From positions 1-40,708 of the forward strand of contig JAFIEM010000019.1 of assembly GCA_020832555.1 (NCBI GenBank): 40,708 bases of DNA, read 5' to 3'. Below are positions 7,545 through 40,623 of this stretch, piece after piece. The notes below the pieces were generated by a model that was not told where the DNA came from, searched no databases, and was given only the letters and a program-made list of their open reading frames with translations. The first letter of the stretch is position 1, and every line of letters begins with the position of its first letter. Made by a program: the position numbers and the translations under genes. The stretch is from Natronohydrobacter sp. (GTDB lineage Bacteria; Pseudomonadota; Alphaproteobacteria; Rhodobacterales; Rhodobacteraceae).

Positions 7545-7810
7545 TTTCTCTCCTCCCTCTCGGGTACGGCGTTGATGTTGCCCAGAGCCAAAGCCCTGCG
7601 ATCGCCGCTACCGCTAACGAGACTATATGACAGATCCGTGAATGGGCCATATAAATTTTTACCAAATGCTCAGAATGTGGTGGCGCGAAAGCAAGTCTCG
7701 CCCTGCAGCACCCTCAACAGCATGACGACCCCGATTTGCCGGGGGTCAACTTTCCTGCGCGTTGGTTGCACTCCTCTGCCGGCAGGTCACAGCCAGCCAG
7801 ACCGGCAAGC
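7545..7810. other. Intergenic region between the transporter operon and the exopolysaccharide operon
   Basis: No gene is seen. The minus-strand part next to 7544 must hold the transporter promoter; a TATAGT hexamer (plus-strand ACTATA at 7622-7627) could be its -10 box, but no convincing -35 was found. A small inverted repeat GACCCC/GGGGTC at 7727-7747 lies downstream of the last exopolysaccharide gene and might end that transcript, although it has no T-run. Confidence 0.35.
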
Positions 7811-8947: not shown

Positions 8948-9068
8948 CCGAAGCATCCGTCTACTGGTTTCTGATCTGGAAACTATTCCGCTTGAACTTG
9001 GCCACACTTGGACGATTTGAAGACAATTTTGCCGACTTTTTCTGTCTTTGGCCATGTCTCACGATGTT

Positions 9069-10235: not shown

Positions 10236-10289
10236 GCTGAGATCCTTCCTAGGGTAAGATGGTTGTTGAATGACATCGAGATGCGGACA

Positions 10290-11258: not shown

Positions 11259-11262
11259 CTTT

Positions 11263-12819: not shown

Positions 12820-12821
12820 TC

Positions 12822-14411: not shown

Positions 14412-14702
14412 TGCTCGCAACTCGTTTTCTTGCCGCTGCCATTTTCCGTCGGAGCGAGCTCTTTATGAGGCATGGAGTGCCGTTGAATTGCGGCGAGAAT
14501 TTGCGGGTGCCGGGACAAAAACGTGAAAACATATCGATTGTTTCGATTCCGCACATAACCCGAGCAATGGGGCGGTTGCCCGGTCGGAAGTGTCGGCAAC
14601 AGACATTCCGGCACGCATGCGCACCGTCTTCAATCACATGTCGCTATCGTCGCCTCGGAACTGCAGCAGGGCCAGAGCGGCGTTTCTGTTACAGCCCCGA
14701 TC
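14412..14702. other. Intergenic region upstream of the exopolysaccharide operon
   Basis: About 290 bases between the tdh stop and the Alg44-like start, with no convincing gene. It must hold the exopolysaccharide promoter. An imperfect dyad (GAAAACA ... TGTTTCG, with ATCGAT in its centre) lies at about 14524-14542 and is the only operator-like element noticed; no clear -35/-10 pair and no intrinsic terminator for tdh were found. Confidence 0.3.
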
Positions 14703-15752
14703 CTAGCCCCAATCCAGCACGATCTTTCCGGAATTTCCGCTGCGCATGATCTCGAAACCCTGCGCGAAATCATCAGCGGGCAAGCGATGTGTGATTACGG
14801 GGCGAATGTTCAGACCGTTTTCCAGCATCGCAATCATCTTGTACCAGGTCTCGAAGATTTCGCGCCCGTAAACGCCCTTGAGGGTGATCGCCTTGAACAC
14901 GATGCGGGACCAGTCTACGGGGCTTTTGCCCGGCGGGATACCCAGAAGGGCGATGCGCCCGCCCATGACCAGATTTTCCACCATCTGATCGAGCGCCTGC
15001 TGATTGCCGGACATCTCAAGCCCCACATCGAAGCCTTCGCGCATCTTCAGCCGGGATTTTACCTGCCCTAGGTCTTCTTGTGCAACATTGACCGGGGTCA
15101 CATCGGCCACTTTCGCTGCCAGTTCCAGCCGCATAGGGTTCACATCCGTAATCACCACATGGCGCGCACCGACATGGCGCGCGACCGCCGCCGCCATGAT
15201 CCCGATGGGACCTGCGCCAGTGATCAGCACATCCTCGCCCACCAGATCGAAGCTCAGCGCGGTGTGAACCGCATTGCCCAGAGGATCAAGGATCGCGCCG
15301 ATTTCATCGTCAATTGCATCGGGCAGCGGCACGACATTGAACGCAGGCAGGCGCAGATATTCGGCGAAAGCGCCCTGTTCATTGACGCCGATGCCGCGCG
15401 TTGCGGGGTCGAGATGGAATTTGCCCGCGCGGCTCTGACGACTGTCAAGGCCAATCAGATGCCCCTCGCCCGAACAGCGCTGACCAATCGCAAGCCCGGT
15501 GACATTGCGGCCCAGCTCGACAATTTCGCCCGCGAATTCATGGCCGGTGATCAGCGGCACCGGGACTGTCTGCTGCGCCCAGTCATCCCAGTTCCAGATA
15601 TGGATATCCGTGCCGCAAATGCCGGTCTTGCGCACCCGGATCAGTACGTCATCAGGACCGATTTCCGGCACCGGATGCGATTCCATCCAGATACCGGATT
15701 CGGGACGGGCTTTGACAAGTGCTTTCATCGTGACTGATGGAGCGTTGCTCAT
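14703..15752 (-). CDS. tdh: L-threonine 3-dehydrogenase, variant without structural-zinc cysteines
   Basis: A 349-residue medium-chain dehydrogenase that oxidises L-threonine to 2-amino-3-ketobutyrate with NAD+. The catalytic zinc ligands Cys46 (TGICGTD) and His71/Glu72 (GHEF) are present, as is the Rossmann motif GAGPIG, and the C-terminal half follows E. coli Tdh closely. The four cysteines of the structural-zinc lobe are replaced by Gly101, Ser104, Ser107 and Asp115, so this lobe cannot bind zinc in the usual way; the same variant appears, as far as I recall, in other Rhodobacteraceae. The start at 15752 has GAGG seven bases upstream. It lies behind kbl, which uses its product, separated by 127 bases. 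Confidence 0.92.
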
Positions 15753-20120: not shown

Positions 20121-22264
<2,144 letters not shown>

Positions 22265-25375: not shown

Positions 25376-25906
25376 TCAGGGAGCCTGTGTCTCTGACCGG
25401 TCAAGCCCGCAAAAGCGGCGCAAGAGCTGGTTCAATTGCCGCTGTTCTCCGGCGCTAAGGTGTCCGCGCTCATGTTCAGCCGCCCCGCCATACAGCGCGC
25501 GCGCCTGTTGAAGCGCTTTGCGTCCTGCCGGACGGATTGACAGCCGCACCGTGCGCCGGTCCCCGGTCGGGATCTCACGCAGAACAAGGGCGCGCTCCTC
25601 GAAAGCCCGGATGATCCGCGTCATTGCGGCGGGCTTGATATAGAGTGCCTGCGCAAGATGCCCTTGCCGCACGCCAGGGCTTTGCGCGATCATTTGCAAG
25701 ATTGTGTATTCAGCCGCGCTAAGCGATACGCTCAGACTGTTTTCTTCCATTTTTTCAGAGACTTGTAGCCACGCCATGCGCAGCAGAAAGCCAGTATTGT
25801 GGCACAACTCGCCATATATGACGTGTTCAGCGGCAAGCGCGAATCCTTCTGGGTCGTCCATCTCGCGCTGCATCTGATCTTTGATCTCCTGCATCATCTG
25901 GCCCAT
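25376..25906 (-). CDS. MarR-family regulator, next to the TRAP genes
   Basis: A 176-residue MarR-type protein. A winged helix-turn-helix occupies about residues 65-125: AAEYTILQMIAQSPGVRQGH, then LYIKPAAMTRIIRAFEERAL and the wing GDRRTVRLS. A longer N-terminal part (about 45 residues) precedes the dimerisation helix. The start at 25906 is the first ATG after a good promoter at 25927-25955. It may control the TRAP genes, and the AT-rich dyad at its promoter suggests autoregulation. MarR proteins of aromatic pathways are commonly released by the CoA-ester or free acid; the ligand here is unknown. Confidence 0.88.
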   Translation of the reverse strand: MGQMMQEIKDQMQREMDDPEGFALAAEHVIYGELCHNTGFLLRMAWLQVSEKMEENSLSVSLSAAEYTILQMIAQSPGVRQGHLAQALYIKPAAMTRIIRAFEERALVLREIPTGDRRTVRLSIRPAGRKALQQARALYGGAAEHERGHLSAGEQRQLNQLLRRFCGLDRSETQAP

Positions 25907-25926
25907 GCCAATTGTTTCTCTTGAAA

Positions 25927-25972
25927 AGATTACAATAAAAACTGTTTCATTTCAAATAATTTAATATCAAAC
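25927..25972 (-). promoter_or_regulatory. Promoter (TTGAAA-N17-TAATCT) with overlapping AT-rich dyad, upstream of the MarR/TRAP genes
   Basis: On the minus strand a -35 box TTGAAA (plus-strand 25950-25955) and a -10 box TAATCT (25927-25932) are spaced by exactly 17 bases and lead into the MarR gene. An imperfect inverted repeat with outer arms GTTTCAT and ATCAAAC (25944-25972, 6 of 7 positions pairing) overlaps the -35 box. This is a natural site for repression by the MarR protein it precedes. Confidence 0.6.
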
Positions 25973-25975
25973 AAT

Positions 25976-27766
25976 CTATGTGTTTTTCCGTCCAGCGCGC
26001 AGAATATGGCCGCTGGAGTGGTCTGCGTAGAGCTCGTCGGCCAGATGCGCGTAGTTTGTGCGCAACGCCCGTTGATTCAGGCTGCCTTTCTCGGTGATCT
26101 CGCCGCGATCGAAATCTGGGGCGGTGTGCAGGATCATTGCGCGCGTAACGCGACTGGCCGATCCTGTCGCGGCATTTGCAGCTTTTGTCAGCGCGGCTTC
26201 CAGTACCGCACCAATTTCTGCGCCATCCAGAGCCTTTGCGCGTTCCGAAAGCAGAAGCAGCGCGCCCAGTTCGGGCTGGTTTTCTCCCACAATCACGGCA
26301 TCCCGGATCAACCCGTCCATCGCATCGACAAGGACAACACGCACCGCCCCGACTGCAACCCATGTACCGGTTGAAAGCTTGAAATTCTCGGCCACGCGGC
26401 CGTCGAAGAAAAAGCCCTTGATTAGATCGTCAGGCTCCGCCGGACGCAAGGCGTCACCAAGGCAATAGAATCCTTCTTCGTCAAAGGCTTCGACCGACTT
26501 TACCGGATCACCCAGATAGCCCGGCATGATCGTCGGTCCTTTCAGACGGGCCTCCAGCTTGTCGCCCGTCGGGACAAGTTTCAATGTCAGCCCGCGCGCG
26601 GGCACGCCGATATTACCTGCCCGTTTCTGGATTTCAGTGCAGGCCAGCGCGAAAGGAGCGGTCTCGGTCGCGCCAAGCCCGGTGGCCAGCAGAACCTCGC
26701 GCCCCGTAATTTCGCGTCCAAGCGCGCTTAGCCGGTCCCAGGTGTGCTGCGCCATGCCTGCGCCCGCGTAAAACAGCATCCCCAAGCGCGAGAAGAAGGT
26801 TTCGGCCAGCGCACGGTCTTTTTCCAGCGCCTCTACCAGCATGTCAAAGCCGATCGGAACGTTGAAATACCAGTTGCAGGCAATTTCGCGCAGATTGCGA
26901 AGGGTTTCATCGAATTTGCCCGGAACCGGGCGGCCATCATCGATGAAGTAGCTTCCCCCGTGACATAGTACGAGCATGAACACCTTGTTGCCCGCGGCGG
27001 TGTGGTTCCAAGGTGCCCAGTCCAGAACGACAGGCGGTTCATCGCGCAAGAAGCGGTAGCAATCGCTGATCATCGCGCCCATCGCGCACATCATGCGATT
27101 GGTGTTGATAACGGCTTTCGGGCTGCCGGTTGACCCGGATGTGAACAGATATTTCACCACACCTTCGGGATGCAGGTCCGCGCGAGCGGCTTGCGCGGCC
27201 TGCGGGTCACTCGCGAGCAGGGTGTTATAGTCATCCTTGCCATCGCCAAGGCTGATGACAACTTGATCAGGCCGGGCAATTGCATCCAGCGCGGGCGCGA
27301 AAGCCTGTGCGTCATCTGCAAATACCGCACCGGGGCGCAAAAGTTCGGCAATTCCGCGCAGCTTGCCATGATCTTTCGAGACCAGCGAATAGGCCGGAGA
27401 GACCGCAGCGAAGGGAATGCCGACATAGATACAGCCCATCGCCAGCAGGGCATGTTCAAGGCTGTTCTCTGACAAAATCAGCAATGGCCGGTCCGGCCCA
27501 AGTCCGCGCGCCAGCAAGGCCGCGCCCAGTCGTTGTGCGGTGTCGCGCGCCACTGCATAGCTTATGCAGCACCATTCACCACCAGTGTCGCGCCGCGCGA
27601 TCCATGTTGCCTCGGGCGTCGTGTCGGCCCAGTGATCCAGATTATCCGCCACAACCGGCGTGTGATCCGGCAGAGGATCGGCCTGGCGCATAAGGATGCT
27701 ACCATCCGTGCGCCGCGTAATTTCGAACTCCGGCCGCCAGAAGCGCGTATCTTTGCTTTCGGGCAT
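25976..27766 (-). CDS. Hydroxycinnamate CoA ligase (feruloyl/coumaroyl-CoA synthetase; CouL-like)
   Basis: A 596-residue ANL-superfamily adenylating enzyme. The AMP-binding P-loop is YLFTSGSTGSPKAVINTNRM near residue 208, and later motifs include LLATGLGATETAP and FYCLGDA. Its N-terminus (DTRFWRPEFEITRRTDGSI) and overall length match proteins annotated as feruloyl-CoA synthases. It would activate p-coumarate or ferulate to the CoA thioester with ATP. The SDR gene ends at the start: a GTG at 27775 overlaps its stop, while the ATG at 27766 is chosen here as the more usual codon. Position with hydratase, dehydrogenase and hydrolase genes supports the aromatic substrate; benzoate-type or fatty acids are less likely. 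Confidence 0.85.
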   Translation of the reverse strand: MPESKDTRFWRPEFEITRRTDGSILMRQADPLPDHTPVVADNLDHWADTTPEATWIARRDTGGEWCCISYAVARDTAQRLGAALLARGLGPDRPLLILSENSLEHALLAMGCIYVGIPFAAVSPAYSLVSKDHGKLRGIAELLRPGAVFADDAQAFAPALDAIARPDQVVISLGDGKDDYNTLLASDPQAAQAARADLHPEGVVKYLFTSGSTGSPKAVINTNRMMCAMGAMISDCYRFLRDEPPVVLDWAPWNHTAAGNKVFMLVLCHGGSYFIDDGRPVPGKFDETLRNLREIACNWYFNVPIGFDMLVEALEKDRALAETFFSRLGMLFYAGAGMAQHTWDRLSALGREITGREVLLATGLGATETAPFALACTEIQKRAGNIGVPARGLTLKLVPTGDKLEARLKGPTIMPGYLGDPVKSVEAFDEEGFYCLGDALRPAEPDDLIKGFFFDGRVAENFKLSTGTWVAVGAVRVVLVDAMDGLIRDAVIVGENQPELGALLLLSERAKALDGAEIGAVLEAALTKAANAATGSASRVTRAMILHTAPDFDRGEITEKGSLNQRALRTNYAHLADELYADHSSGHILRAGRKNT

Positions 27767-27771
27767 ACCTG

Positions 27772-28533
27772 TCACGCTGGGGCCATGCGAATGGCACCAT
27801 CCAGCCGGATGACCTCGCCATTCAGCATCGGGTTGGTCACGATATGCAGCGCCATGGCCGCAAATTCCGCCGGATCGCCCAGCCGTGATGGGTAGGGCAC
27901 CTGTTTGCCCAACGACTCCTGAGCCTCAGGCGGCAGGCTATGCAGCAAGGGCGTCAGGAACAGACCGGGCGCGATAGTGCAGACGCGGATGCCCTTATCG
28001 GCCAGATCACGCGCCATTGGCAGGGTCATGCCGACAATCCCCCCCTTTGATGCGGCATAGGCCACCTGACCAATCTGGCCATCAAAGGCAGCGACCGAAG
28101 CAGTGTTGACAATGACGCCTCGTGCCTGATCAGCCCCTTTGGGGTCTTGCGCGGCCATGACTGCCGCGGCCTGCGAGGCGCAGTTGAAGGTGCCACCCAG
28201 ATTGACCGATAGCGCGCGCATGAACACTGCCGGGTCATGCGCCAGACCGCGCGATACCGTCTTTGCCGCAGGGCCGATGCCCGCACAATTGACAAGCACG
28301 CGCAGCGTGCCAGCGCTGCCTGCCTGCACGAAGCCCTTGGCCACGCTGTCAGGGTCTGCGACATCGACCTTGCAAAACAACCCATTCAGTTCGGAAGCAA
28401 GCTTTTCCCCGCTCCCCTCACTCAGGTCGAAAATGACCGGACGCATTCCGGCCCCTGCCAGCGCCCGCGCCGTGGCCGCGCCCAGACCGGATGCGCCGCC
28501 CGTCACCACGGCAAGATCGCCATTGAAGATCAC
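27772..28533 (-). CDS. SDR-family 3-hydroxyacyl-CoA dehydrogenase (CouN-like)
   Basis: A 253-residue short-chain dehydrogenase. The cofactor motif TGGASGLG is near residue 11, an acidic residue after the second strand (FDLSE) indicates NAD+, NCAG is at about 87, and the catalytic Ser-Tyr-Lys set lies in NTASVAAF and VAYAASKGG. It resembles the type II 3-hydroxyacyl-CoA dehydrogenases (HSD17B10-like). In this operon it would oxidise the beta-hydroxy-phenylpropanoyl-CoA made by the hydratase to the beta-keto-CoA. It begins with a GTG overlapping the stop of the MarR gene by four bases and overlaps or abuts the ligase gene, so the three are tightly coupled. Confidence 0.87.
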   Translation of the reverse strand: MIFNGDLAVVTGGASGLGAATARALAGAGMRPVIFDLSEGSGEKLASELNGLFCKVDVADPDSVAKGFVQAGSAGTLRVLVNCAGIGPAAKTVSRGLAHDPAVFMRALSVNLGGTFNCASQAAAVMAAQDPKGADQARGVIVNTASVAAFDGQIGQVAYAASKGGIVGMTLPMARDLADKGIRVCTIAPGLFLTPLLHSLPPEAQESLGKQVPYPSRLGDPAEFAAMALHIVTNPMLNGEVIRLDGAIRMAPA

Positions 28534-29000
28534 GATGCCTCATCCTTTTCATGTGCTGATCGGAATTTGCGCAACAATGTCAGCAATTGCACCTGCTCAG
28601 CCCGATCAAGCGGGGCGAGCAATGCGCGTTCATGCGCCTGAACCCGCGCGAGGATCTGGGCGTGAAGTTCATATCCAGCCTCGGTCGCTATCAACGCCTG
28701 CGCGCGACGGTCACCAGGAACCGCCCTGCGTTCGGCCAGCCCGCGCGCTTCCAGATCATCGATGATCGCAACCAACCCCGAGCGCTCTATCCCAAGCTGG
28801 CGCGCAACCTCGCTTTGGGTCATCCCGCTACTTTCCACAATTAGGGTCAGCACGGAAAATGCGCGCGGCGACAGAACAGACTGCTCAACCTGATTGCGGA
28901 AATCATCGCGCACAATCATGTAGGCACGCTTCAGATTATAACCCAGCAGGCGCTCAATGTCCGATTCGTCCTCCAGCAGCGCAGGATGTGCTTTTGCCAT
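28530..29000 (-). CDS. MarR-family regulator, CouR/FerR-like
   Basis: A 156-residue MarR protein with the winged helix-turn-helix at about residues 40-105 (SPRAFSVLTLIVESSGMTQS, then LGIERSGLVAIIDDLEARGL and the wing GDRRAQALI). It is the first gene of the minus-strand dehydrogenase/ligase operon and stands divergent from the hydratase operon, the usual position of CouR and FerR, which repress hydroxycinnamate genes until the CoA ester binds. Dyads in the 125-base divergent region are suitable targets. The ligand is inferred from context only. Confidence 0.87.
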   Translation of the reverse strand: MAKAHPALLEDESDIERLLGYNLKRAYMIVRDDFRNQVEQSVLSPRAFSVLTLIVESSGMTQSEVARQLGIERSGLVAIIDDLEARGLAERRAVPGDRRAQALIATEAGYELHAQILARVQAHERALLAPLDRAEQVQLLTLLRKFRSAHEKDEAS

Positions 29001-29050
29001 ACCCCCCGGCCCTTTCGATAACCCCTCTTGCCAGATAGCTTAGCAGTAAA

Positions 29051-29098
29051 ATTGTAACTTCACAATACTGTTTACTAAGGTAACAATATATGTATAGT
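29051..29098 (+). promoter_or_regulatory. Divergent control region: promoter of the hydratase operon with dyads
   Basis: A dyad ATTGT-N6-ACAAT lies at 29051-29066, and an imperfect one centred on GTTTACTAAGGTAAC at 29070-29084. A probable -10 box, TATAGT, is at 29093-29098, with TTTACT (29071-29076) as -35 box 16 bases upstream. The dyads would let the divergent MarR protein cover both promoters. Confidence 0.55.
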
Positions 29099-29125
29099 GG
29101 CCTTGAGGCATGAGGGGAGTTTTTC

Positions 29126-29917
29126 ATGGACGGGTCCGTCGAAACGCTGGTCAGCTACCGCTTGCAGGGCGAGGTTGCGGTCATCGGCCTGAATCGTCCC
29201 TCGAAGAGAAATGCCATATCAGACACCGTGGTGGACTCATTGCGCATTGCAGCAGAACGTGCCCAGAGCGAAGCGCGCGCAGCGGTCATTTATGGCGAGG
29301 GCGATCATTTCTGCGCCGGGCTGGACCTTGCAGAGCACAAGGACAAGCCGCTGTTTGACGCCATTCAGGGGTCGCGGCGCTGGCATGCAATATTTTCGGG
29401 TTTTGAGCGCGGCACGATTCCGTTCATTTCGGCGCTGCATGGTGCGGTTGTGGGCGGCGGGTTCGAACTTGCGGCGGCGACACACCTGCGCGTGGCGGAC
29501 GAGTCCGCCTTTTTCGGCCTGCCCGAAGGCCAGCGCGGCATTTTTGTCGGCGGCGGCGGATCGGTGCGTATTGCGCGGCTGATCGGGGCTGCGCGCATGG
29601 GTGACATGATGCTGACTGGCCGGACAGTTTCACCCGCGCAGATGGAGGTCTGGGGTGGCGTGTCCTATGTCGTACCCAAAGGGCAAGCACTGGCACGCGC
29701 GATTGAACTGGCCAAAGCTACTGCGAGCAATGCGCCACTGTCGAACTATGCGGTTCTGAACGCACTGCCGCGCATCGCTGAAATGTCTGTAGAGGATGGG
29801 TTGTTCACCGAATCGATCATGTCGGCGCTGACTTCGGAAACCCCCGAAGCCAAGCAACGCCTGCGCGATTTTCTGGAGAAGCGCGCGGCACGCCTCAAGG
29901 CCCCTGACGAGTCGTGA
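29126..29917 (+). CDS. Enoyl-CoA hydratase/crotonase (CouM-like)
   Basis: A 263-residue crotonase-fold protein. Both acid/base glutamates of hydratases can be placed: one in GGGFELAAATHLR and one in GLPEGQRGIFVGGGG. The oxyanion-hole glycine lies in LHGAVVGGG. It would add water to p-coumaroyl-CoA or a related ester. Feruloyl-CoA hydratase-lyases that release the aldehyde belong to the same fold, but the dehydrogenase and hydrolase genes alongside point to plain hydration followed by beta-oxidation. The ATG at 29126 has GGGGAG seven bases upstream. First gene of a three-gene plus-strand operon. Confidence 0.85.
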   Translation: MDGSVETLVSYRLQGEVAVIGLNRPSKRNAISDTVVDSLRIAAERAQSEARAAVIYGEGDHFCAGLDLAEHKDKPLFDAIQGSRRWHAIFSGFERGTIPFISALHGAVVGGGFELAAATHLRVADESAFFGLPEGQRGIFVGGGGSVRIARLIGAARMGDMMLTGRTVSPAQMEVWGGVSYVVPKGQALARAIELAKATASNAPLSNYAVLNALPRIAEMSVEDGLFTESIMSALTSETPEAKQRLRDFLEKRAARLKAPDES

Positions 29918-29928
29918 GAGGAAACGCC

Positions 29929-30813
29929 ATGAGCATCAATCTTGATGAGATCGTCGCTATCGATATTCATACCCATGCCGAGGAGCCGTGCAATTGCCAT
30001 CGTGATGACGGCTATATGGAGTTTCAGAAGGGCATGGCTGCGTATTTCCGCAACCCGGCCGGGGCCGATGGTATGTTGCCCACCGTGGAGCAGACCGCTG
30101 CCTATTACCGCAAGCGCAAGATCGCGGCTGTCATCTTCGGGGTCGATGCCGAACGGGAAACCGGTTTCTATCGACACACGAACGAGGAAATCGCCCGGAT
30201 ATGTGCCGCGAACGCGGATATTCTGATCCCCTTTGCATCGATTGACCCCGCCAAGGGCAAGCTCGGTGCGCGCGAGGCGCGGCGGCTGGTGCGTGATTTC
30301 GGTGTGCGCGGCTTCAAGTTCCACCCGACCATGCAGGGGTTTTTCCCAAATGACCGCATGGCCTACCCGCTCTATGAGGCCATTGCCGAGGAAGGCGCGA
30401 TCATGATTTTCCATACCGGCCAGACCGGTGTGGGGTCAGGCATGCGCGGCGGTATGGGAATGCGGCTCAAATATTCCAACCCGATCCATATCGATGATGT
30501 CGCAGTGGATTTTCCCGAAACGCCGATCATCCTTGCCCATCCTTCTTTCCCCTGGACTGAGGAAGGCTTGGCCGTGGCGCAACACAAACCGAATGTCTAT
30601 GTTGATATGTCAGGCTGGTCGCCCAAGTATTTCCCGCAGATTTTCGTGCATTATGCCAATACGATCCTGAAGAAGAAGATGCTTTTCGGGTCGGACTGGC
30701 CAGCAATCACGCCTGATCGCTGGCTGGCCGATTTCGAAGAGCTGAAAATCCGAGATGAAGTTCGTCCGCTGATCCTGAAGGACAATGCGGCGCGGCTTCT
30801 GGGCCTGACCTAA
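29929..30813 (+). CDS. Amidohydrolase_2 family hydrolase (CouO-like, beta-ketoacyl-CoA hydrolase)
   Basis: A 294-residue TIM-barrel metal hydrolase. Metal-binding residues are visible in IDIHTHAEE (HxH), GFKFHPTMQGF, ILAHPSFPW and FGSDWPAI (the C-terminal Asp). The family includes CouO of Rhodococcus jostii, which hydrolyses 4-hydroxyphenyl-beta-ketopropanoyl-CoA to 4-hydroxybenzoate and acetyl-CoA, and decarboxylases of the ACMSD group. Here it stands between a crotonase and an acyl-CoA dehydrogenase and near an SDR and a CoA ligase, matching the CouLMNO set. Start at 29929 with AGAGGAAA upstream. No thiolase or aldehyde dehydrogenase gene is present in the cluster, which supports the hydrolase reading. 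Confidence 0.82.
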   Translation: MSINLDEIVAIDIHTHAEEPCNCHRDDGYMEFQKGMAAYFRNPAGADGMLPTVEQTAAYYRKRKIAAVIFGVDAERETGFYRHTNEEIARICAANADILIPFASIDPAKGKLGAREARRLVRDFGVRGFKFHPTMQGFFPNDRMAYPLYEAIAEEGAIMIFHTGQTGVGSGMRGGMGMRLKYSNPIHIDDVAVDFPETPIILAHPSFPWTEEGLAVAQHKPNVYVDMSGWSPKYFPQIFVHYANTILKKKMLFGSDWPAITPDRWLADFEELKIRDEVRPLILKDNAARLLGLT

Positions 30814-30816
30814 GCC

Positions 30817-32409
30817 ATGCAGGCGCTTGATGACATCCTGTGGAGTCTGGAATTCACGGGCGCTGCGCGCATTCCAGGTTGGGATCGCGAGCTTGCCCGC
30901 GAGGTTGCGAAACATTTCGCGGCTTTCGCGGCAGCACGGATTTCACCGCTGGACGGGCCGGGGGATTTGCAGGGGTGTCACCTGATCGCCGGGCGTGTCC
31001 ATCTGCCAGACGGATTTGCACAGACCTATCGCGACTTGGCAAAGGCGGGCTGGCAGGGGCTGAGCGCGCCTGAGAAATTCGGCGGGCAAGAACAGGGACC
31101 GGCAGTTCAGGCGCTGGTGTCAGAGGTGTTTTCCGGTGCCTGTCATGCGCTTCAGATGGTTGCGGGTCTGGTGCCAGGCGCGATCCGGCTTCTGCGCCAT
31201 GTCGCAACACCCGAACAACAGGCGCGTTATATCCCCGAACTGGCCTCGGGGGCCTGGCTGGCGACCATGTGTCTGACCGAATCTGACGCTGGCTCGGATC
31301 TGTCGCGCATCCGCAGCCATGCGGTCAGGGACGAGCAGAGCTGGCACGTCAGCGGTGAGAAAATCTTCATCTCAGGCGGTGATCAGGACGCGAGCGAAAA
31401 TATCCTGCATCTGGTGCTGGCGCGGACCGGGCCAGAGGGGACGAAGGGTCTGAGCCTCTTTGCCTGTCCTGCGATCTTGCCTGATGGCCGACGCAATACG
31501 ATCACTGTGGAGCGGATCGAGCAGAAGATGGGCCTGCACGCCTCGCCCACCTGCCACATGATCTTCGAAGCCGCCGAGGGTGAATTGATCGGCGCACCGG
31601 GCCAAGGGCTGGCAGCGATGTTCCTGCTGATGAACCATGCCCGTCTGGATGTGGCGCTGCAAGGTGTGGCCCATGCCGCGAAATCGCATGCCATCGCGCG
31701 CGACTATGCCGCAGGACGCAGGCAGGGGCGCAGACCGGATGGCAGCCCGGCGGTTCTGGCGCAGCACGCCGATGTGGCGCGCATGCTTGCCGAGATGGAC
31801 CAACAGACACTTGCCGCGCGCGCGCTGGCTCATACTGCGCTGGTTGCGCTTGAAACCGGAGAAAATGATCTTGCGGAGTTTCTGACTCCGATGGCAAAAG
31901 TCGCTGGGTCGAATGCGGGCATTCGGGTGACGGAAACCGCGATGCAGGTGCTGGGTGGCTATGGCTATCTGCACGAATATCGGCTGGAACAGGCGTATCG
32001 GGATGCGCGAATCTGCGCAATCTATGAAGGCGCAAATGGGATACAGGCGCTGACCCTTGCCATGCGCGGTCTGTCCTATGCCGGGGGTGCACAGGCGCGT
32101 GCTTTTGCGGATTATATCGGGCAGATCGCGCAGGCTCATCCGCATTCGCCGCTGGCAGCCGCGCTGGAAGACTGGCATGCGCTATGTGACCGGGTGCGCA
32201 CGTCCCCGGCTGAAATGGCTGATCTGCTGATGCAGGCCAGTATAGCGCTGGCGGAACTGGCCTTCTGGCAGCGCGTCAGCATCGAGTGCAGGGGCAGCGC
32301 GCGGTTGCAGGCCCTTGTAACCGATGCGTGCAATATGGCCGTGCATACCATTCGCAGCGGCCTGCATTTTGCCGCCTTGCGCGAAAAGCCAGTTCTGCAA
32401 AGTGCCTGA
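30817..32409 (+). CDS. Acyl-CoA dehydrogenase, long form (530 residues)
   Basis: A flavin-dependent acyl-CoA dehydrogenase of 530 residues, longer than the usual 380, with a C-terminal extension of the type found in long forms such as DmdC. Recognisable parts are CLTESDAGSDLSRIRSHAV (FAD and substrate loop), VSGEKIFISGGDQ, and LEQAYRDARICAIYEGANGI, which holds the catalytic glutamate. It starts three bases after the hydrolase stop. In this operon it could desaturate 3-(4-hydroxyphenyl)propanoyl-CoA to coumaroyl-CoA, letting dihydrocinnamates enter the same route; this is inferred from position. Its 3' end faces the pcaD 3' end with 8 bases between. Confidence 0.85.
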   Translation: MQALDDILWSLEFTGAARIPGWDRELAREVAKHFAAFAAARISPLDGPGDLQGCHLIAGRVHLPDGFAQTYRDLAKAGWQGLSAPEKFGGQEQGPAVQALVSEVFSGACHALQMVAGLVPGAIRLLRHVATPEQQARYIPELASGAWLATMCLTESDAGSDLSRIRSHAVRDEQSWHVSGEKIFISGGDQDASENILHLVLARTGPEGTKGLSLFACPAILPDGRRNTITVERIEQKMGLHASPTCHMIFEAAEGELIGAPGQGLAAMFLLMNHARLDVALQGVAHAAKSHAIARDYAAGRRQGRRPDGSPAVLAQHADVARMLAEMDQQTLAARALAHTALVALETGENDLAEFLTPMAKVAGSNAGIRVTETAMQVLGGYGYLHEYRLEQAYRDARICAIYEGANGIQALTLAMRGLSYAGGAQARAFADYIGQIAQAHPHSPLAAALEDWHALCDRVRTSPAEMADLLMQASIALAELAFWQRVSIECRGSARLQALVTDACNMAVHTIRSGLHFAALREKPVLQSA

Positions 32410-33251: not shown

Positions 33252-34184
33252 TCACGCGGGGCTTGGGCGTCCATCTTCCGGCGGGTCGCACATTGCGCGC
33301 AGCAGTTTCACGAATGCCTCTGTCTCTTGCGTCATTTCGGAATTGGCGCGCTGGCAGATCCCCACTGGCCCGGCAGGCAAGTCGCTTTCCGGGTCAAGTG
33401 TTGTCAGACTGCCTGCCGCAAGTTCATCCGCGACCACCCCTTTCGAGATGAACCAGACAATGTCAGAATTCATCACAAGCTTGCGCCCGAATGCCAGTGA
33501 AACCGTCTCAAAAGTCGGCTCCAGATGCGACAGCCCCACGCTGACCAGCCAGCCACGCACCGCAGGGGCGATAAGGGCGCCCGCAGGTGGTAGCATCAGC
33601 TTGTATTTCGCAAGTGCCGCCGACACGTTGGACATACCCAGAAGCGGATGACCCGGACGCACGACCATGACCACGCGCTCGGCGTAAAGCTGGCGAAAGG
33701 TCAGGCCGTTCATCTGCTCGGCATCGGGCATGCGCCCGACCATCAGATCAAGTGATCCTTCGCGCAGTTGAGACATCAAAAGCCAGTTCGGCCCGGTGGT
33801 AAGCTGCAATATGCAATGCGGGACCAGTTCGTTGTATTTCAGCGCCGCGCGCGGCAGCAGATCCGTCGCCACAGTTGGCAACACCCCAAGATTAAGCCGG
33901 GTGATCCGTTCTGGCGCATCGCGCACCGCCTCTTGCGCGGTTTCCAGTGCACGCATAGCCGAACCGGCATGTTGCTGAAACACGCGCCCGGCGGGCGAGA
34001 GCACAAGCCGCCTTGTGCTGCGGTCAAACAGCGCGACATCGAGAATTTCTTCCAGTTCGCGCAGGGTTTTTGACGCAGCAGGCTGCGAGATCGAGAGTTC
34101 CTCTGCCGCTGCCGAAAGCCCGCCCAGACGGGCAGTTTCCAGAAAGCACCGCAAGTGACGCAAACGCAGCCTTGGGTCCATCAT
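33252..34184 (-). CDS. pcaQ: LysR-family activator of the protocatechuate genes
   Basis: A 310-residue LysR-type regulator. The helix-turn-helix is at about residues 8-65 (HLRCFLETARLGGLSAAAEE, then ISQPAASKTLRELEEIL) and the C-terminal two-lobe effector domain follows. Its sequence and its position directly before pcaD identify PcaQ, which activates pca genes in response to beta-carboxy-cis,cis-muconate and gamma-carboxymuconolactone. A site resembling the PcaQ box lies upstream of pcaC at 37877-37892, and a GGTTAACC sequence lies at 34194-34201 just before its own start. The first two codons are both ATG (34184 and 34181). Confidence 0.9.
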   Translation of the reverse strand: MMDPRLRLRHLRCFLETARLGGLSAAAEELSISQPAASKTLRELEEILDVALFDRSTRRLVLSPAGRVFQQHAGSAMRALETAQEAVRDAPERITRLNLGVLPTVATDLLPRAALKYNELVPHCILQLTTGPNWLLMSQLREGSLDLMVGRMPDAEQMNGLTFRQLYAERVVMVVRPGHPLLGMSNVSAALAKYKLMLPPAGALIAPAVRGWLVSVGLSHLEPTFETVSLAFGRKLVMNSDIVWFISKGVVADELAAGSLTTLDPESDLPAGPVGICQRANSEMTQETEAFVKLLRAMCDPPEDGRPSPA

Positions 34185-34275: not shown

Positions 34276-35346
34276 TCAGCCCATGCTTTCGGGGGCAGGA
34301 AATACCCGACCCTCCATCAGCTTGCGAGCGGTGCGCAGAAATCCAGCGGCGCGTACTTGCGCTCCCTCGCGTTCCAGCAAGACCTCTGTCATGCCTGCGG
34401 GATGCTCAATCCAGAAGCTGCCGCTTTGTGGCAGCGTAGCCAAAGGATGCGCGATACTGCCCGGTGTCACACAACTCGCGGCCACACTGAGCGCGGCAAG
34501 CACTCCGATGCCCCTATGCACCTGATGTGGAATAAAAAACCGCGTTGCGATTGTCCCGCCACAAACGGGCGGGGCAAGAAGGGCCATCTTGGGGATGCTT
34601 TTCTCGCGCACATCGCCCAGCCCCATCAATGGTCCGGCTTGCAGGCGGATGGATTCAATCTGCGCTTTGAGGCAGTCCATCCCTTCAAGGGCTTCGGGGC
34701 TTTCCTGCCCGCTCAACCCCATATCGGCTGCGCGCAGCAGTACCACCGGCATACCATGATCAATCAATGTGCAGGCCACACCGTCGATCACATCCGAGGG
34801 TCGGCCCGAGGGCAGCATCGCGCCACAAACTGCCCCTGCGATATTCTCAAACAACAGTTGAACCGGCGCATGGGATGCCGGCACGCCGTCTATTTCTGCG
34901 CTGCCGTCATAGCGCACGCGCCCGCCCGGGGTCTGTACAGTGGCTTGCGCGATCTCGCCGGTATTGCACATATGGACGCGCAGCGCCGTTTCTCCGTTCT
35001 GCGCAGCGACCAACCCGCGCTCAATCGCGGCGGGGCCGACCGCGGCCAGGACATTGCCGCAGGGCTGCGCAGCAGTAACGCAGGGCTGGTCAACAAAGAC
35101 CTGCAGGAACAGATAATCCACATCCGCATCTGCGCGCGAGGGGGGCGACAGAATCGCGACCTTGGAACTAAGCGGATCGCCGCCCCCGATCCCGTCAATC
35201 TGGCGTGGGTCAGGGCTTCCCAAAATGCGTAGCAGCAATTTGTCGCGCTCCGTTTCATCCGAAGGCAGGTCAGAGGCCAGAAACACGGCGGCCTTGGAGG
35301 TACCGCCGCGCATCCACAGGCAGGGAATGCCTGTGCTGTCAGACAT
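34276..35346 (-). CDS. galD: 4-oxalomesaconate tautomerase (PrpF family)
   Basis: A 356-residue member of the PrpF family with the diaminopimelate-epimerase fold. It starts [20 protein letters not shown] and continues with [20 protein letters not shown] and later [14 protein letters not shown], closely following GalD of Pseudomonas putida. GalD interconverts the keto and enol forms of 4-oxalomesaconate. The ATG at 35346 overlaps the end of galC by eight bases; the much longer open frame upstream is only the galC shadow. It is the last gene of the four-gene galB-dioxygenase-galC-galD operon. 2-methylaconitate isomerase (PrpF) is the alternative, but the neighbours exclude it in practice. Confidence 0.93.
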
Positions 35347-36010
35347 ATTTAAGCCCCTTCTCGGCCAGTCGCGAGCGCATGTTGTAGATGTCCAGCCCCA
35401 ACTCACCCGAGGCCAGACGGCTGCGGCGCGCATCTTCCGAGGCCAGCCGAGCTTCGGCCTTGTCCGCCACTTCCTCGGCGCGGGCATGGGGGACGACAAC
35501 CACGCCATCGTCATCAGCAACGATGACATCGCCCGCATTGACCTGCTGGCCCGCACAGACAATCGGCACATTGACCGAACCCAACGTTTCCTTCATCGTC
35601 CCTTGCGCCGAAATTGCCGTCGACCAGACCGGAAAGCCCATTGCCTTCAAATCCGCAATATCGCGCACGCCAGCATCTATGACCAAGCCCTTGCAGCCGC
35701 GCGCCATCGCTGATGTGGCCAGAAGATCGCCGAAATAGCCCATATCGCAGGAACTCGTGGGCGCGAGCACCAGAAGGTCACCCTGTTGCACCTGTTCAAT
35801 GGCGACATGCAGCATCCAGTTGTCGCCCGGCGGCGCAGAGATGGTGACGGCGGTGCCTGCAAGTCTTGCCCCGCGCCAGATCGGGCGCATCTGCGCCGCC
35901 ATGCACCCGCTGCGACCCTGCGCCTCATGCACTGTGGCCACACCGGCCTGCTCCAGACGCGCGATGACCTCTGGCGCGGCGCGGGGAATGCTCTGAACAA
36001 CGACGCCCAT
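35339..36010 (-). CDS. galC: 4-carboxy-4-hydroxy-2-oxoadipate aldolase
   Basis: A 223-residue RraA-fold class II aldolase. It opens [11 protein letters not shown] and carries [45 protein letters not shown] and [13 protein letters not shown], where the last Arg-Asp pair and the GDLL loop bind metal and substrate in LigK/ProA/GalC enzymes. It splits 4-carboxy-4-hydroxy-2-oxoadipate into pyruvate and oxaloacetate, and usually also decarboxylates oxaloacetate. Its start codon overlaps the stop of the dioxygenase gene by one base (TGATG) and its end overlaps galD. Confidence 0.94.
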
Positions 36011-36978
36011 CAGGCTGGTTCCTTGTCATTTGGCGGTGTGCCATGCGTGTGGAAAGTCTCGATCGTTTTCAGCCCCCAGGCCTGCCCTTTCTTGCGATCG
36101 GTCTCTGTCCAGCACACAGGTTCCCAATCAGGCGCCAGGATCAGGCGCGCCCCGGCATTGGCCAGTTCCACCCGATTGCCAGCAGGTTCCCAGACATACA
36201 GAAAGAATGTGCCCTGTATCGCATGCTTGTGCGGCCCGGTTTCGATATGCACACCATTTTGCAGGAAGATATCAGCCGCACGCAGGATATCCTCGCGCTG
36301 GTCGGTGGCATAGGTGACATGATGCAACCTTGCATGCCCGCCGCCATGTTCTTCCGTGCAGGCCAGATCATAAGTCTTGTTGTTGATGGTGAACCAGCAC
36401 CCGCCCAGTCGACCATTGTCGAGTTGGATATATTCTGTCACCCGGCTGCCAAGGCAGGTCTCCATGAACCGGCGGAATTCGCGCACATCGGCAGATAACA
36501 GGTTGAGGTGGTCGATCCGCCGTGGGGCCGCCCCGGTGAAGGCGCTGGCCGTGTTCTTCAGCGCCGGGCGGTCAGTAGCATCGGGTTCGGCGCGGCGCGT
36601 ATCATAATAGATTTCGAACACATGGCCGAACGGGTCTTCGAACCGAAAGGCACGGCCATGCCCCATATCACCATCATTCCAGCCATGCACTATGTAGCCA
36701 GACGCCCCGATCACCTCGACGCGCCGCGCCAGCGCCTCTGGGCTGGCGGCGCGGTAGCCGATATGACCCACGCCGGTTGTATGGTGGCGCGTCAGTTTGA
36801 GCGAATAGAATTCGTAGTCATCCCAGGCGCGCAGATAGGCGCTTGTGTGGTCCTGCCCTGACAGTTTCAGGCCGAAAACACGGGTAAAGAAGTCAAGGCT
36901 TTCGTCAAAGCGGTCAGTGTAGATTTCGACATGGCCCAGATGCGCAATGTCGAAAGCCGGTTTCGTCTGCATAGGCAT
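36010..36978 (-). CDS. Type I (VOC) extradiol ring-cleavage dioxygenase
   Basis: A 322-residue, two-domain vicinal-oxygen-chelate protein of the catechol 2,3-dioxygenase / homoprotocatechuate 2,3-dioxygenase group. The iron ligands in the second domain can be placed as His in [10 protein letters not shown], His in [10 protein letters not shown] and Glu in [10 protein letters not shown]; the nearby [14 protein letters not shown] carries the second-shell His and Tyr. The first domain keeps HLGHVEIYT but its fold is the non-catalytic copy. It lies inside the galB-galC-galD operon, where gallate dioxygenase (a LigB-type protein) is normally found. It probably makes 4-oxalomesaconate or a close relative, so gallate or a methylated or related trihydroxy acid is the suspected substrate. 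The ATG at 36978 has GAGGAGG seven bases upstream. Confidence 0.88.
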
Positions 36979-36990
36979 CAATCGTCCTCC

Positions 36991-37722
36991 TCAAAGCTCA
37001 TCAACAGTGCGCGGAAAGACCGACTGGAACCCTTCGGCATATTTGCAATCCCGCCCCCCTGCCATACCGCCCGAATTGCGCTTGAAGTGATTGGCGCGCT
37101 GCTGGGCGACGCGGGTGTAGAAATCCCACAGATGCACCTGACCACCCATCGCCTCCATCGCGGCGCGCTTCTGATCCCAAACGGGGGTGATGTCTAGAAA
37201 TGTGTCGGGCTTCCAGCCCATCTGCTCGGTTTGATGCGGCTCAAACAGGTACAGCTGCGGCGCGCCCAGAACGCGCTCGCCCGGATTATGGCCCCAAGCC
37301 TGCGCAATCATCCGCGCTTCCAGCGCGATCTGGGTCGTGTACATGTGGTCGGTGTTATAGGGGTCGTACTGGCTGTGGCTCAGCATGAAGGCGGGCTGCA
37401 CCTTGCGGATCAGATCAACGAGCCGCATCTTGTCGGATTGCTCCAGATGCAACGGGTAATCACCCAGATCGAAACATTCCAGCCGGTGCACGCCCAAAAC
37501 CTGCGCCGCGACCTCTGCCTCTTTTCGGCGGATCGCCTTGACCTGATCGAGAGTCATGCCTTCTTTCCACAGCTTCGCGCTTTCGCCGCGTTCGCCAAAA
37601 GAAAGGCAGGCCACTGTCACGTCATAACCCTTTTGCGCATGCAGCGCGATGGCACCGCCGCAGCGCCAGACGAAATCTGCGGCATGGGCGGAGATGACGA
37701 GCGCGGTTTTGGTGGCAGTCAT
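36991..37722 (-). CDS. galB: 4-oxalomesaconate hydratase (PIG-L/LmbE family)
   Basis: A 243-residue zinc-dependent protein of the PIG-L/MshB fold. The metal site reads SAHAADFVWRCGGAIALHAQ instead of the AHPDD of deacetylases, exactly the kind of change seen in GalB of Pseudomonas putida, and the rest (VACLSFGERGESAKLW, LSHSQYDPYNTDH, FLDITPVWDQK, AEGFQSVFPRTVD) also follows GalB. It hydrates 4-oxalomesaconate to 4-carboxy-4-hydroxy-2-oxoadipate, the substrate of GalC. The start at 37722 has GAGGAG upstream; it is the first gene of the operon and divergent from pcaC. Confidence 0.93.
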   Translation of the reverse strand: MTATKTALVISAHAADFVWRCGGAIALHAQKGYDVTVACLSFGERGESAKLWKEGMTLDQVKAIRRKEAEVAAQVLGVHRLECFDLGDYPLHLEQSDKMRLVDLIRKVQPAFMLSHSQYDPYNTDHMYTTQIALEARMIAQAWGHNPGERVLGAPQLYLFEPHQTEQMGWKPDTFLDITPVWDQKRAAMEAMGGQVHLWDFYTRVAQQRANHFKRNSGGMAGGRDCKYAEGFQSVFPRTVDEL

Positions 37723-37985: not shown

Positions 37986-38384
37986 ATGCGTGAATTCATG
38001 ACCGACCGCTATGCCAACGGAATGCGCGTCCGCCGGACAGTACTTGGAGACGCGCATGTGGATCGGGCCGAGGCGGGGCGCGATGAGTTTGATACACCTT
38101 TTCAGTCGCTGATAACCGAATCTGCCTGGGGCACGGTCTGGGCGTCGGATGCCATCAGCCTGCGCGAACGCTCAATGCTGACACTCGCGATCCTTGCGGC
38201 AACAGGAAGTTTCGAAGAGATCCCGATGCATGTGCGCGCAACCCTGCGCACCGGCGCCAGTCAGCGTGATGTGATGGAGGCTTTCCAGCATGTGGCCATC
38301 TATGCCGGTGTGCCAAAAGCCAATCATGCGATCAAACTTGCAAAGGCGATTTTTGCCGAGATGGAGGCGGCAGACAATGCTTGA
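37986..38384 (+). CDS. pcaC: 4-carboxymuconolactone decarboxylase
   Basis: A 132-residue member of the AhpD/CMD fold. It matches PcaC in RYANGMRVRRTVLGDAHVDR, LITESAWGTVWA and MHVRATLRTGASQRDVMEAF, then HVAIYAGVPKANHA. It decarboxylates gamma-carboxymuconolactone to 3-oxoadipate enol-lactone, PcaD's substrate. The ATG at 37986 is the first after a GGGGA stretch; an in-frame ATG at 37998 would give a start closer to most homologues. Its 3' end overlaps pcaH by eight bases. Confidence 0.95.
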   Translation: MREFMTDRYANGMRVRRTVLGDAHVDRAEAGRDEFDTPFQSLITESAWGTVWASDAISLRERSMLTLAILAATGSFEEIPMHVRATLRTGASQRDVMEAFQHVAIYAGVPKANHAIKLAKAIFAEMEAADNA

Positions 38385-39105
38385 TGACGGACCCTTGATC
38401 CCGCGCAATCGTGCGCTTCACCCGGTCCCCTACGATCCGGGTTACAAGACGACAGTCGCACGCTCACCCTATCTGCCACTTCTGTCGATGGATAGCAGCG
38501 CATCCGAAGAAACCGGGCCGACCTTCGGTCATGGCGCGTTCGGAGCGCTGGACAACAATCTGATCCTGAACTGGACCCGCGGCTCTGCGCCTGCTGTCGG
38601 AGAGCGGATCGTCATGCATGGCCGCGTTCTCGACGAGCGCGGGCGCGGCGTGCCGCATACGCTGGTGGAAATCTGGCAGGCCAATGCAGGCGGGCGTTAC
38701 CGGCACAAGAAGGACGGCTATCTCGCCCCACTGGACCCGAATTTCGGCGGTGCCGGGCGCACCCTGACCGATGCGGAAGGAAACTATCAGTTCTTGACCA
38801 TCCGCCCCGGTGCCTATCCCTGGCCCAATCGTGGCAATGACTGGCGTCCGATGCATATCCATGTTTCGGTTTTCGGGCATAGTTTCGGGCAGCGCCTGAT
38901 CACACAGATGTATTTCGAAGGCGACCCGCTGATCCCGCTCTGCCCGATTGCGGCAACGATCAAGGATCGTGCGCAGCTCGACCGGTTGGTCGCGCCGCTG
39001 GACATGGCGAATTCCAAGCCGCTGGACTATCTGGCCTATAAATTCGACATCGTACTGCGCGGTCGACGCCAAAGCATGTTTGAAAACAAGCCGGAAGGGA
39101 TGTGA
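38377..39105 (+). CDS. pcaH: Protocatechuate 3,4-dioxygenase beta subunit
   Basis: A 242-residue intradiol dioxygenase subunit holding the non-haem Fe(III). The four ligands can be counted out as Tyr108 (GGRYRHK), Tyr147 (PGAYPWP), His160 and His162 (PMHIHVS), the same numbering as in the Pseudomonas beta subunit (408, 447, 460 and 462 in its usual scheme). With PcaG it cleaves protocatechuate between the hydroxyls to beta-carboxy-cis,cis-muconate. The ATG at 38377 overlaps the pcaC end; the longer frame from 38290 runs inside pcaC. Confidence 0.97.
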   Translation: MLDDGPLIPRNRALHPVPYDPGYKTTVARSPYLPLLSMDSSASEETGPTFGHGAFGALDNNLILNWTRGSAPAVGERIVMHGRVLDERGRGVPHTLVEIWQANAGGRYRHKKDGYLAPLDPNFGGAGRTLTDAEGNYQFLTIRPGAYPWPNRGNDWRPMHIHVSVFGHSFGQRLITQMYFEGDPLIPLCPIAATIKDRAQLDRLVAPLDMANSKPLDYLAYKFDIVLRGRRQSMFENKPEGM

Positions 39106-39108
39106 GCC

Positions 39109-39708
39109 ATGGTCCAGAGACTTGACATGCTGGTGGAGACCCCGTCGCAGACCGCTGGTCCCTATGTGCATATCGGGCTGATGCCCAGCTATACTGGTAA
39201 CGGCCAGATCTTCGATCTGGAGCTCGGCCAAAACCCGATTGAGGATGGCGCTGCGGGCGAGATCATCGAGATTACCGGGTCAGTCTATGATGGCACGGGC
39301 TGGGCAATGCGCGATGCGCTGATCGAGAGCTGGCAGCCCGATGCGCAGGGGCGTTTTGCCGGGCAGGACGGTGCCGACCCCAAAGTGACCGGGTTTTGCC
39401 GTTTTGCGGCCAATGCCGAAACCGGCGAATTCACCCTGCGCACGGTAAAACCGGGCCCGGTTGCGTTGCGAGACGGGCGGGTACAGGCACCGCATATCTC
39501 ACTGTGGATAGTGGCGCGCGGAATCAATATCGGTCTTCAGACGCGCATCTATTTCGAAGATGAAGACAACAGCGCAGACCCGCTTCTCGAGCGGATAGAA
39601 CAGCGCCCGCGTGTCGAGACCCTGATCGCGAAAAAGACCGGGTCAGGGCAATACCGTTTCGATATTCGCTTGCAGGGTGATGGCGAAACGGTTTTTCTCG
39701 ACATCTGA
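39109..39708 (+). CDS. pcaG: Protocatechuate 3,4-dioxygenase alpha subunit
   Basis: A 199-residue subunit homologous to PcaH but without the iron ligands. It starts ETPSQTAGPYVHIGLMP, typical of PcaG, and keeps APHISLWIVARGINIGLQTR, in which the subunit contributes to the substrate pocket. It starts three bases after pcaH with GGAAGGGA as ribosome-binding site, which gives balanced synthesis of the two subunits. Confidence 0.96.
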   Translation: MVQRLDMLVETPSQTAGPYVHIGLMPSYTGNGQIFDLELGQNPIEDGAAGEIIEITGSVYDGTGWAMRDALIESWQPDAQGRFAGQDGADPKVTGFCRFAANAETGEFTLRTVKPGPVALRDGRVQAPHISLWIVARGINIGLQTRIYFEDEDNSADPLLERIEQRPRVETLIAKKTGSGQYRFDIRLQGDGETVFLDI

Positions 39709-39720
39709 CAATAGCGCCCC

Positions 39721-39755
39721 GAGCGCGAAACGCTCACCCACCCGCGTCACACGCG
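39721..39755 (+). other. Two small GC-rich hairpins between pcaG and the BKACE gene
   Basis: GAGCG/CGCTC closes a 5-base loop at 39721-39735, and CGCG/CGCG closes another at 39743-39755. Neither is followed by a T-run, so termination is unlikely; an effect on mRNA processing or on the ratio of downstream expression is possible. Confidence 0.35.
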
Positions 39756-39789
39756 CAAGGGCGCAGGTGCGACAAGACAGGACAGACCC

Positions 39790-40623
39790 ATGACCAACCC
39801 CTGCATAATCGCTGTTGCCATCACCGGCTCGGTCCCGACCAAGGCGAACAACCCGGCAGTACCGATTACCGTGACCGAGCAGATCGAGAGTACGCAAGCC
39901 GCGTTCGAGGCCGGCGCAACCATTGCACATTGCCATGTGCGCAATGACGATGAAACACCGTCCTCTGACCCGGAAAAATTCGCGCGTCTGAAAGAGGGAC
40001 TGGAAAAGCACTGCCCCGGCATGATCATCCAGTTTTCAACCGGGGGACGATCCGGGGCGGGGCAGGCGCGCGGCGGGATGCTGCCGCTACGCCCGGACAT
40101 GGCGTCGCTTTCCGTTGGGTCGAACAATTTTCCGACACGGGTTTATGAGAACCCGCCCGATCTGGTGGATTGGCTGGCCTCTGAGATGCTGAAATACGAC
40201 GTCATACCGGAAATAGAGGCCTTTGACCTGAGCCATGTCATTCAGGCCGCGCGCATGGCCGATGACGGACGACTGAAGCGCCCCCTCTATGTGCAATTCG
40301 TCATGGGCGTGAAAAACGCCATGATCGCCGATGAGCGCATCCTCGATATCTACATCGAAACCCTGAACCGTTTCGCCCCGGATGCGCTATGGTGCGCTGC
40401 GGGCATTGGTCCCAATCAGATCGTAGTCAATGAATGGGCGATTGCGCGTGGGGGCCATACCCGCACGGGTCTGGAAGACAATATGCGCCTTAACCGCGAG
40501 ACGCTCGCGCCATCCAACGCAGCCCTTGTCGCTCGCACAGTGGAGCTGTGCGACAGGTATGACCGACCGGTTGCAAGCTGGCAGCAGGCGCGCGAGATTC
40601 TGGGGTTGCGGGCAGCAGCTTGA
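39790..40623 (+). CDS. BKACE (DUF849) beta-keto acid cleavage enzyme, probable 3-oxoadipate cleavage
   Basis: A 277-residue TIM-barrel enzyme of the BKACE family, which condenses a beta-keto acid with acetyl-CoA and releases acetoacetate and a new CoA ester. The zinc ligands His47 and His49 (AHCHVRN) and Glu229 of the GLEDN motif (227-231), with Arg225 and Asp230 beside them and Glu143 in PEIEAFD, agree with positions known from the founding enzyme Kce. It follows pcaG by 81 bases in the same direction. A substrate of 3-oxoadipate would give acetoacetate and succinyl-CoA, replacing PcaIJ and PcaF. 3-keto-5-aminohexanoate, the original Kce substrate, is unlikely here. Confidence 0.87.
   Translation: MTNPCIIAVAITGSVPTKANNPAVPITVTEQIESTQAAFEAGATIAHCHVRNDDETPSSDPEKFARLKEGLEKHCPGMIIQFSTGGRSGAGQARGGMLPLRPDMASLSVGSNNFPTRVYENPPDLVDWLASEMLKYDVIPEIEAFDLSHVIQAARMADDGRLKRPLYVQFVMGVKNAMIADERILDIYIETLNRFAPDALWCAAGIGPNQIVVNEWAIARGGHTRTGLEDNMRLNRETLAPSNAALVARTVELCDRYDRPVASWQQAREILGLRAAA

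Follow-up and report, generated by a model that had tools for sequence, protein, structure and literature searches.

A VOC-fold candidate for gallate 4,5-cleavage in a gal-type operon of Natronohydrobacter sp.

Introduction

Gallate derived from tannins and syringyl lignin occurs widely in soils and in the sea. Its ring is opened in one step to 4-oxalomesaconate, the compound on which GalD, GalB and GalC act, according to the accessible portions of two papers (PMC10512348, PMC12314914). GalA and DesB, both gallate dioxygenases of the LigB type, have been characterised (PMC3962378, PMC12314914), and a 2014 survey, as far as its accessible text goes, files gallate dioxygenases under the LigB superfamily (PMC4250580). 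No type I gallate dioxygenase is named in the literature searched, which comprised titles and the openings of abstracts, with subscription journals mostly outside the coverage. Among type I extradiol enzymes, homoprotocatechuate 2,3-dioxygenase (HPCD) offers a useful comparison: in the portion available of PMC10760822, its His200 serves as both base and acid, and loss of this residue leaves the enzyme very slow; calculations described in the accessible part of PMC6308299 indicate that His200, His248 and Tyr257 favour extradiol over intradiol cleavage.

Here we analyse a stretch of 40,708 nucleotides from Natronohydrobacter sp. (assembly GCA_020832555.1, contig JAFIEM010000019.1, positions 1 to 40,708), referred to as the window, in which a minus-strand operon, galB–VOC–galC–galD (37722–34276), includes a gene for a VOC (type I) extradiol dioxygenase. 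From its sequence and gene setting we propose, at a probability of about 0.72, that this protein carries out gallate 4,5-cleavage as a type I dioxygenase, in place of the LigB-type GalA.

Operon layout and gene identities

The operon consists of the following genes:

36991..37722, minus strand: galB, 4-oxalomesaconate hydratase (PIG-L-type metalloenzyme); PF02585, closest PDB relative 5cgz
36010..36978, minus strand: VOC (type I) extradiol dioxygenase, proposed gallate 4,5-dioxygenase; two PF00903 stretches, alignment to 1q0c
35339..36010, minus strand: galC/ligK, 4-carboxy-4-hydroxy-2-oxoadipate aldolase; TIGR02798
34276..35346, minus strand: galD, 4-oxalomesaconate tautomerase; NF033377, ATG at 35346

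A 12-base gap separates galB from the VOC gene, which overlaps galC by 1 base; galC and galD overlap by 8 bases. The VOC gene ends at 36010 and starts either at the preferred ATG (36978; 322 amino acids, GAGGAGG upstream) or at a TTG (36981). GalC scores above the curated model TIGR02798 (364.6 bits, cut-off 304.5) and matches the solved aldolase 3noj, while GalD, scanned from 35340 and so two residues short, scores above NF033377 (481.4 against 440 bits) and matches the solved 4-oxalomesaconate isomerase 6p3j. The top match of GalB among solved structures is 5cgz, '4-oxalmesaconate hydratase' (E 9.3e-93). Together the three products are predicted to constitute the gal pathway from 4-oxalomesaconate to pyruvate and oxaloacetate. 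The original prediction, which had been made from the letters of the window, gave these gene identities, the strand, the 12-base gap and the overlap with galC; it also called GalB, GalC and GalD convincing and placed a two-domain VOC dioxygenase among them. The analysis bears it out on each point.

The proposed reaction is that of GalA from Pseudomonas putida KT2440 and DesB from Sphingobium SYK-6, and the downstream enzymes GalD, GalB and GalC are the same as those of GalA. Unlike GalA and DesB, the VOC protein has no PF02900 (LigB) domain; its domain matches are of the VOC type only, and it aligns over nearly its full length with solved type I enzymes, an unrelated fold. An AlphaFold prediction that included 25 close relatives was of low confidence (mean pLDDT, predicted local distance difference test, 61.8) and the model was not used.

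Active site and phylogeny

Residues are numbered from the TTG at 36981 (minus 1 for the ATG start), and we take the HPCD residues to have the roles named here. In the alignment to HPCD (1q0c), the Fe ligands His155, His214 and Glu267 correspond to H158, H221 and E272 of the VOC protein, and the columns of Asn157, Trp192, His248 and Tyr257 are also retained. This 2-His-1-Glu metal site is present in 100 of 100 distinct locus sequences that share 70% identity or more with that of the window, some of which share a genome across two collections. The column of the second-sphere His200 holds Tyr204 in the VOC protein and tyrosine in all 100 sequences, and that of Arg243 holds Thr248, with threonine in 99. 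This change from histidine to tyrosine with the Fe ligands kept is new here and had no place in the original prediction.

The VOC protein thus shares with HPCD the two-domain architecture and most of the compared columns, and differs in its overall identity (28%), in the two replacements and in its surroundings, where no hpa genes were recognised. Two type I catechol 2,3-dioxygenases, pWW0 XylE (27% identical) and 3lm4 (35%), belong to the same superfamily and share the metal-ligand columns but keep the catalytic histidine. Membership of the catechol 2,3-dioxygenases was rejected for the VOC protein (TIGR03211, 287.3 against 320.2 bits; tyrosine in the catalytic His column), as was that of the homoprotocatechuate 2,3-dioxygenases (TIGR02295, 198.2 against 321.4 bits; threonine in the Arg243 column).

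The nearest solved relative is PDB 9wgj (about 50% identical), which shares with the VOC protein the tyrosine and the R-K-K/R-G-Q stretch near the C-terminus but falls outside the gal-type clade. Its source and function were not found in paper text or in plasmid records (best plasmid match 57%). It carries the label 'Catechol 1,2-dioxygenase', a name that belongs to an intradiol activity. No close relative was found for which a different substrate is known.

In a tree of 55 rows, the 39 with tyrosine at the His200 column form one clade (support 98/97), whose members include 9wgj and sequences from Nonomuraea, Thermus oshimai, Methylobacterium, Roseomonas and Bradyrhizobium-like bacteria. Within it the gal-type sequences form an inner clade of 28 rows (100/99). 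Several outgroup branches are long, and the deep order of the tree is therefore unsure. Since the tyrosine also occurs in relatives with DUF1932, LigI-like or DUF6282 neighbours, which suggest other substrates, it is not limited to gal-type operons. The 16 rows outside the tyrosine clade have histidine (15) or isoleucine (1) at this column. A haloarchaeal VOC relative from Halobellus limi (L145, 5992-6933) has isoleucine there, a second kind of departure from the catalytic histidine.

Proposed reaction

Gallate would bind the 2-His-1-Glu metal site through its 3- and 4-hydroxyls, O2 would be added and the C4–C5 bond cleaved to give 4-oxalomesaconate, which the tautomerase GalD, the hydratase GalB and the aldolase GalC would turn into pyruvate and oxaloacetate. 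The C4–C5 bond of gallate is extradiol relative to a metal-bound 3,4-diol and intradiol relative to the 4,5-diol. Because both cleavage routes would give the same product, the extradiol-directing His200 may be dispensable here and the constraint on it relaxed. We infer gallate as the substrate, 4-oxalomesaconate as the product and a catalytic role for the tyrosine. More tentatively, the VOC clade with the natural His-to-Tyr change might work on trihydroxylated or carboxylated rings, its gal-type branch cleaving gallate without the histidine where extradiol and intradiol outcomes coincide. The branch would then be a natural counterpart of the His200 variants of HPCD made in the laboratory and a non-homologous replacement for GalA in many Alphaproteobacteria.

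Many marine and soil bacteria seem, by their sequences, to open the gallate ring with a fold other than that of the textbooks, carrying tyrosine in place of the catalytic histidine. If this is true, annotation in many Rhodobacterales and Rhizobiales has overlooked the ring-opening step or given it a wrong name; annotated records of VOC relatives bear the names VOC family protein, catechol 2,3-dioxygenase or bphC. One and the same ring cleavage would be performed by two unrelated folds, with no change in the enzymes that follow it, and the natural tyrosine at the position of HPCD His200 would provide a direct test of the purpose of the histidine.

Distribution of the operon

A scan of a species-genome collection revealed 567 stretches encoding a VOC relative, of which the best 80 (81-92% identical, hence all close relatives) were analysed. 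Judging by their record titles, these come mostly from Rhodobacterales and Rhizobiales. Neighbouring genes were scored through tblastn matches to a reference protein set, not full gene calls; 57 of the 80 loci span at least 16 kb and the remainder have short flanks, so that counts of genes not found refer to the contents of the stretches. All three of galB, galC and galD lie within the stretch in 66 loci. The order galB–VOC–galC–galD is kept on one strand in 63 of the 80 and as adjoining matches in 56, from which it follows that the operon arrangement is not due to chance.

The gene is also widely co-inherited with galD. Among 147 genomes of relatives, 24 carry a VOC relative at 68% identity or more, and the GalD model matches in 23 of these against 52 of the 147 overall (hypergeometric p 1.5e-11, shared descent ignored). 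The galD count also takes in some paralogues close to the cut-off, such as a second match in the window's own genome (441.1 bits); as the single match in G050 is of paralogue size (446.4 bits), co-occurrence is secure in 22 of the 24 genomes. In plasmid records, 44 VOC relatives reach 60% identity or more, and many of these come from near-identical Agrobacterium isolates. VOC relatives on Pantoea and Chimaeribacter plasmids indicate that the gene is mobile. The VOC gene of Pantoea piersonii is grouped with galBCD, a LysR gene and a gene for an aromatic acid symporter.

No PF02900 match was found in the draft genome to which the window belongs (86% complete, 238 contigs), nor a LigB gene in 14 of the 24 VOC genomes; five of the 14 (G001, G031, G081, G083 and G128) are listed as 100% complete. 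Among the 80 loci, a clear LigB gene appears once (L097, beside a second galBCD set) and a weak match (27%) once more (L102). The analysis favours the first of two options that the original prediction had left side by side, takeover of gallate 4,5-cleavage by an unrelated fold rather than service to another substrate. The protein is a real and widespread candidate replacement for GalA with a non-homologous fold. At one locus, L120 (G041:C12, about 9391-14787), a fused LigB-LigA gene adjoins the VOC gene and a gene for a TRAP transporter, so that both candidate kinds of gallate dioxygenase stand together.

Clues to the substrate

If protocatechuate or 3-O-methylgallate were the substrate, further enzymes would be needed before GalD, GalB and GalC. 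A LigI-like amidohydrolase gene lies near the VOC gene in 2 of the 80 loci only (L059, 49%; L099, 30%), and this rarity implies a one-step route to 4-oxalomesaconate. Among clusters of a LigB-type gene with galD, in stretches fetched from the G-series genomes, a LigI-like gene is found in three of four (L121, L129 and L130); none was found in the fourth, L153, whose stretch ends near that side.

A tannase-family gene occurs within or directly after the operon in 4 of the 80 loci, always on the same strand. It lies between galC and galD in Paracoccus salipaludis (L090, about 7258-12429: galB-VOC-galC-tannase-galD), follows galC in L081, where no galD was found before the end of the stretch, and follows galD in L083 and L109. 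On a plasmid of walnut Agrobacterium a tannase-family gene also follows galD. Genes above the PF07519 cut-off are present in 7 of the 24 VOC genomes and in 10 of the 123 others (p 0.008, shared descent ignored).

Several observations weigh against gallate cleavage by the VOC enzyme. In the 7 VOC genomes with a tannase-family gene, none is beside the VOC gene, the nearest being about 20 kb away (G075), and PF07519 also includes feruloyl esterases and MHETase. In the 86%-complete draft genome of the window neither a tannase nor VanA was found; for the tannase, the search controls gave no match, and the same model matched 18 of the 147 relatives. A LigB gene is present as well in 10 of the 24 VOC genomes, and in G041 a fused LigB-LigA gene, which has the layout of GalA, is separated from the VOC gene by about 3 kb. 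In G083, where no LigB gene was found, the VOC relative has an internal stop codon and sits on a different contig from a cluster in which galBCD follow a LigI-like gene. Eight of the 80 loci hold no galB, galC or galD in the stretch. Finally, HPCD is very slow without His200, as the available part of PMC10760822 has it, so the tyrosine needs explaining.

Aromatic genes around the operon

The gal operon is flanked at one end by pcaQ and pcaD and at the other by pcaC, pcaH, pcaG and a gene for a 3-oxoadipate cleavage enzyme:

33252..34184, minus strand: pcaQ, LysR regulator of the adjoining protocatechuate genes; TIGR02424, 315 bits, cut-off 303.8
37986..40623, plus strand: divergent pcaC-pcaH-pcaG-3-oxoadipate cleavage enzyme genes; TIGR02425, TIGR02422, TIGR02423 and NF053568, each above cut-off
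20121..21416, minus strand: pobA, 4-hydroxybenzoate 3-monooxygenase, protocatechuate supplier; TIGR02360, 673.7 bits, cut-off 538.7

With the genes of the pca 3,4-branch and pobA near the operon, the 3,4-branch already provides for protocatechuate.

Alternative substrates

Methylated gallate and protocatechuate are less likely substrates. It is improbable in our estimate that the enzyme cleaves 3-O-methylgallate, which arises from syringate, or some other analogue of gallate to a product that loses methanol or is de-esterified before GalD, GalB and GalC. Routes from 3-O-methylgallate to 4-oxalomesaconate do exist in other bacteria, on the evidence of the accessible part of PMC12314914, and the LigI-like gene that precedes galBCD in G083 would suit one. 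So would the VOC relatives of about 60% identity that lie near a LigI-like amidohydrolase gene and galB in four Bradyrhizobium-like loci (L161, L162, L165 and L167), with galC also present in L161, L162 and L167; galD was not found at the four, and these relatives are possibly type I enzymes for protocatechuate or 3-O-methylgallate. Against this stand the scarcity of LigI-like genes among the 80 loci, the absence of a LigI-like match in the window's draft genome (in a search made without a positive control) and the absence of a methylesterase from the four-gene operon. We judge equally unlikely a type I protocatechuate 4,5-dioxygenase, with a DUF1932 dehydrogenase and a 2-pyrone-4,6-dicarboxylate (PDC) hydrolase completing the route to 4-oxalomesaconate. 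In 37 of the 80 loci the VOC gene has a DUF1932 gene, 6-phosphogluconate-dehydrogenase-like, in its vicinity, and relatives of 57% identity in Methylobacterium and Thermus oshimai are accompanied by DUF1932, LigI-like or DUF6282, and ligK genes. The window's genome, by contrast, has no close DUF1932 copy (best match 26%) and, in the same uncontrolled search of the draft, no LigI-like gene, LigC itself not having been searched; and it is protocatechuate 3,4-dioxygenase genes that adjoin the operon.

The remaining explanation, that the VOC gene of the gal operon codes for a standard catechol or homoprotocatechuate 2,3-dioxygenase while PcaHG cleaves gallate, appears very improbable. PcaHG can act slowly on gallate, and the top curated models for the VOC protein are those of catechol 2,3-dioxygenase and HpaD; yet it falls below both cut-offs, the residues at the catalytic His and Arg243 columns are replaced almost without exception in its close relatives, and a Ruegeria relative annotated as HpaD, which does lie within an hpa operon, is 28.5% identical to it. 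The catechol, homoprotocatechuate and protocatechuate readings thus fit less well than gallate 4,5-cleavage.

Other genes

The DUF1932 gene (for example L113:2391-3275) recurs by both gal-type and LigB-type ring-cleavage clusters, and its product is perhaps a semialdehyde dehydrogenase. The window's draft genome contains a second 4-oxalomesaconate tautomerase-like gene (G000:C71:10581-11621, L128; 441.1 against 440 bits), around which no galB or galC match was found in 19 kb. Further off in the window are CoA ligase, enoyl-CoA hydratase and TRAP transporter genes. Positions 25376-32409 hold genes for a CoA ligase, an SDR protein, an enoyl-CoA hydratase, an amidohydrolase and an acyl-CoA dehydrogenase together with two MarR-like regulators (labelled by eye), and possibly represent a phenylpropanoid side-chain pathway that supplies the aromatic genes.

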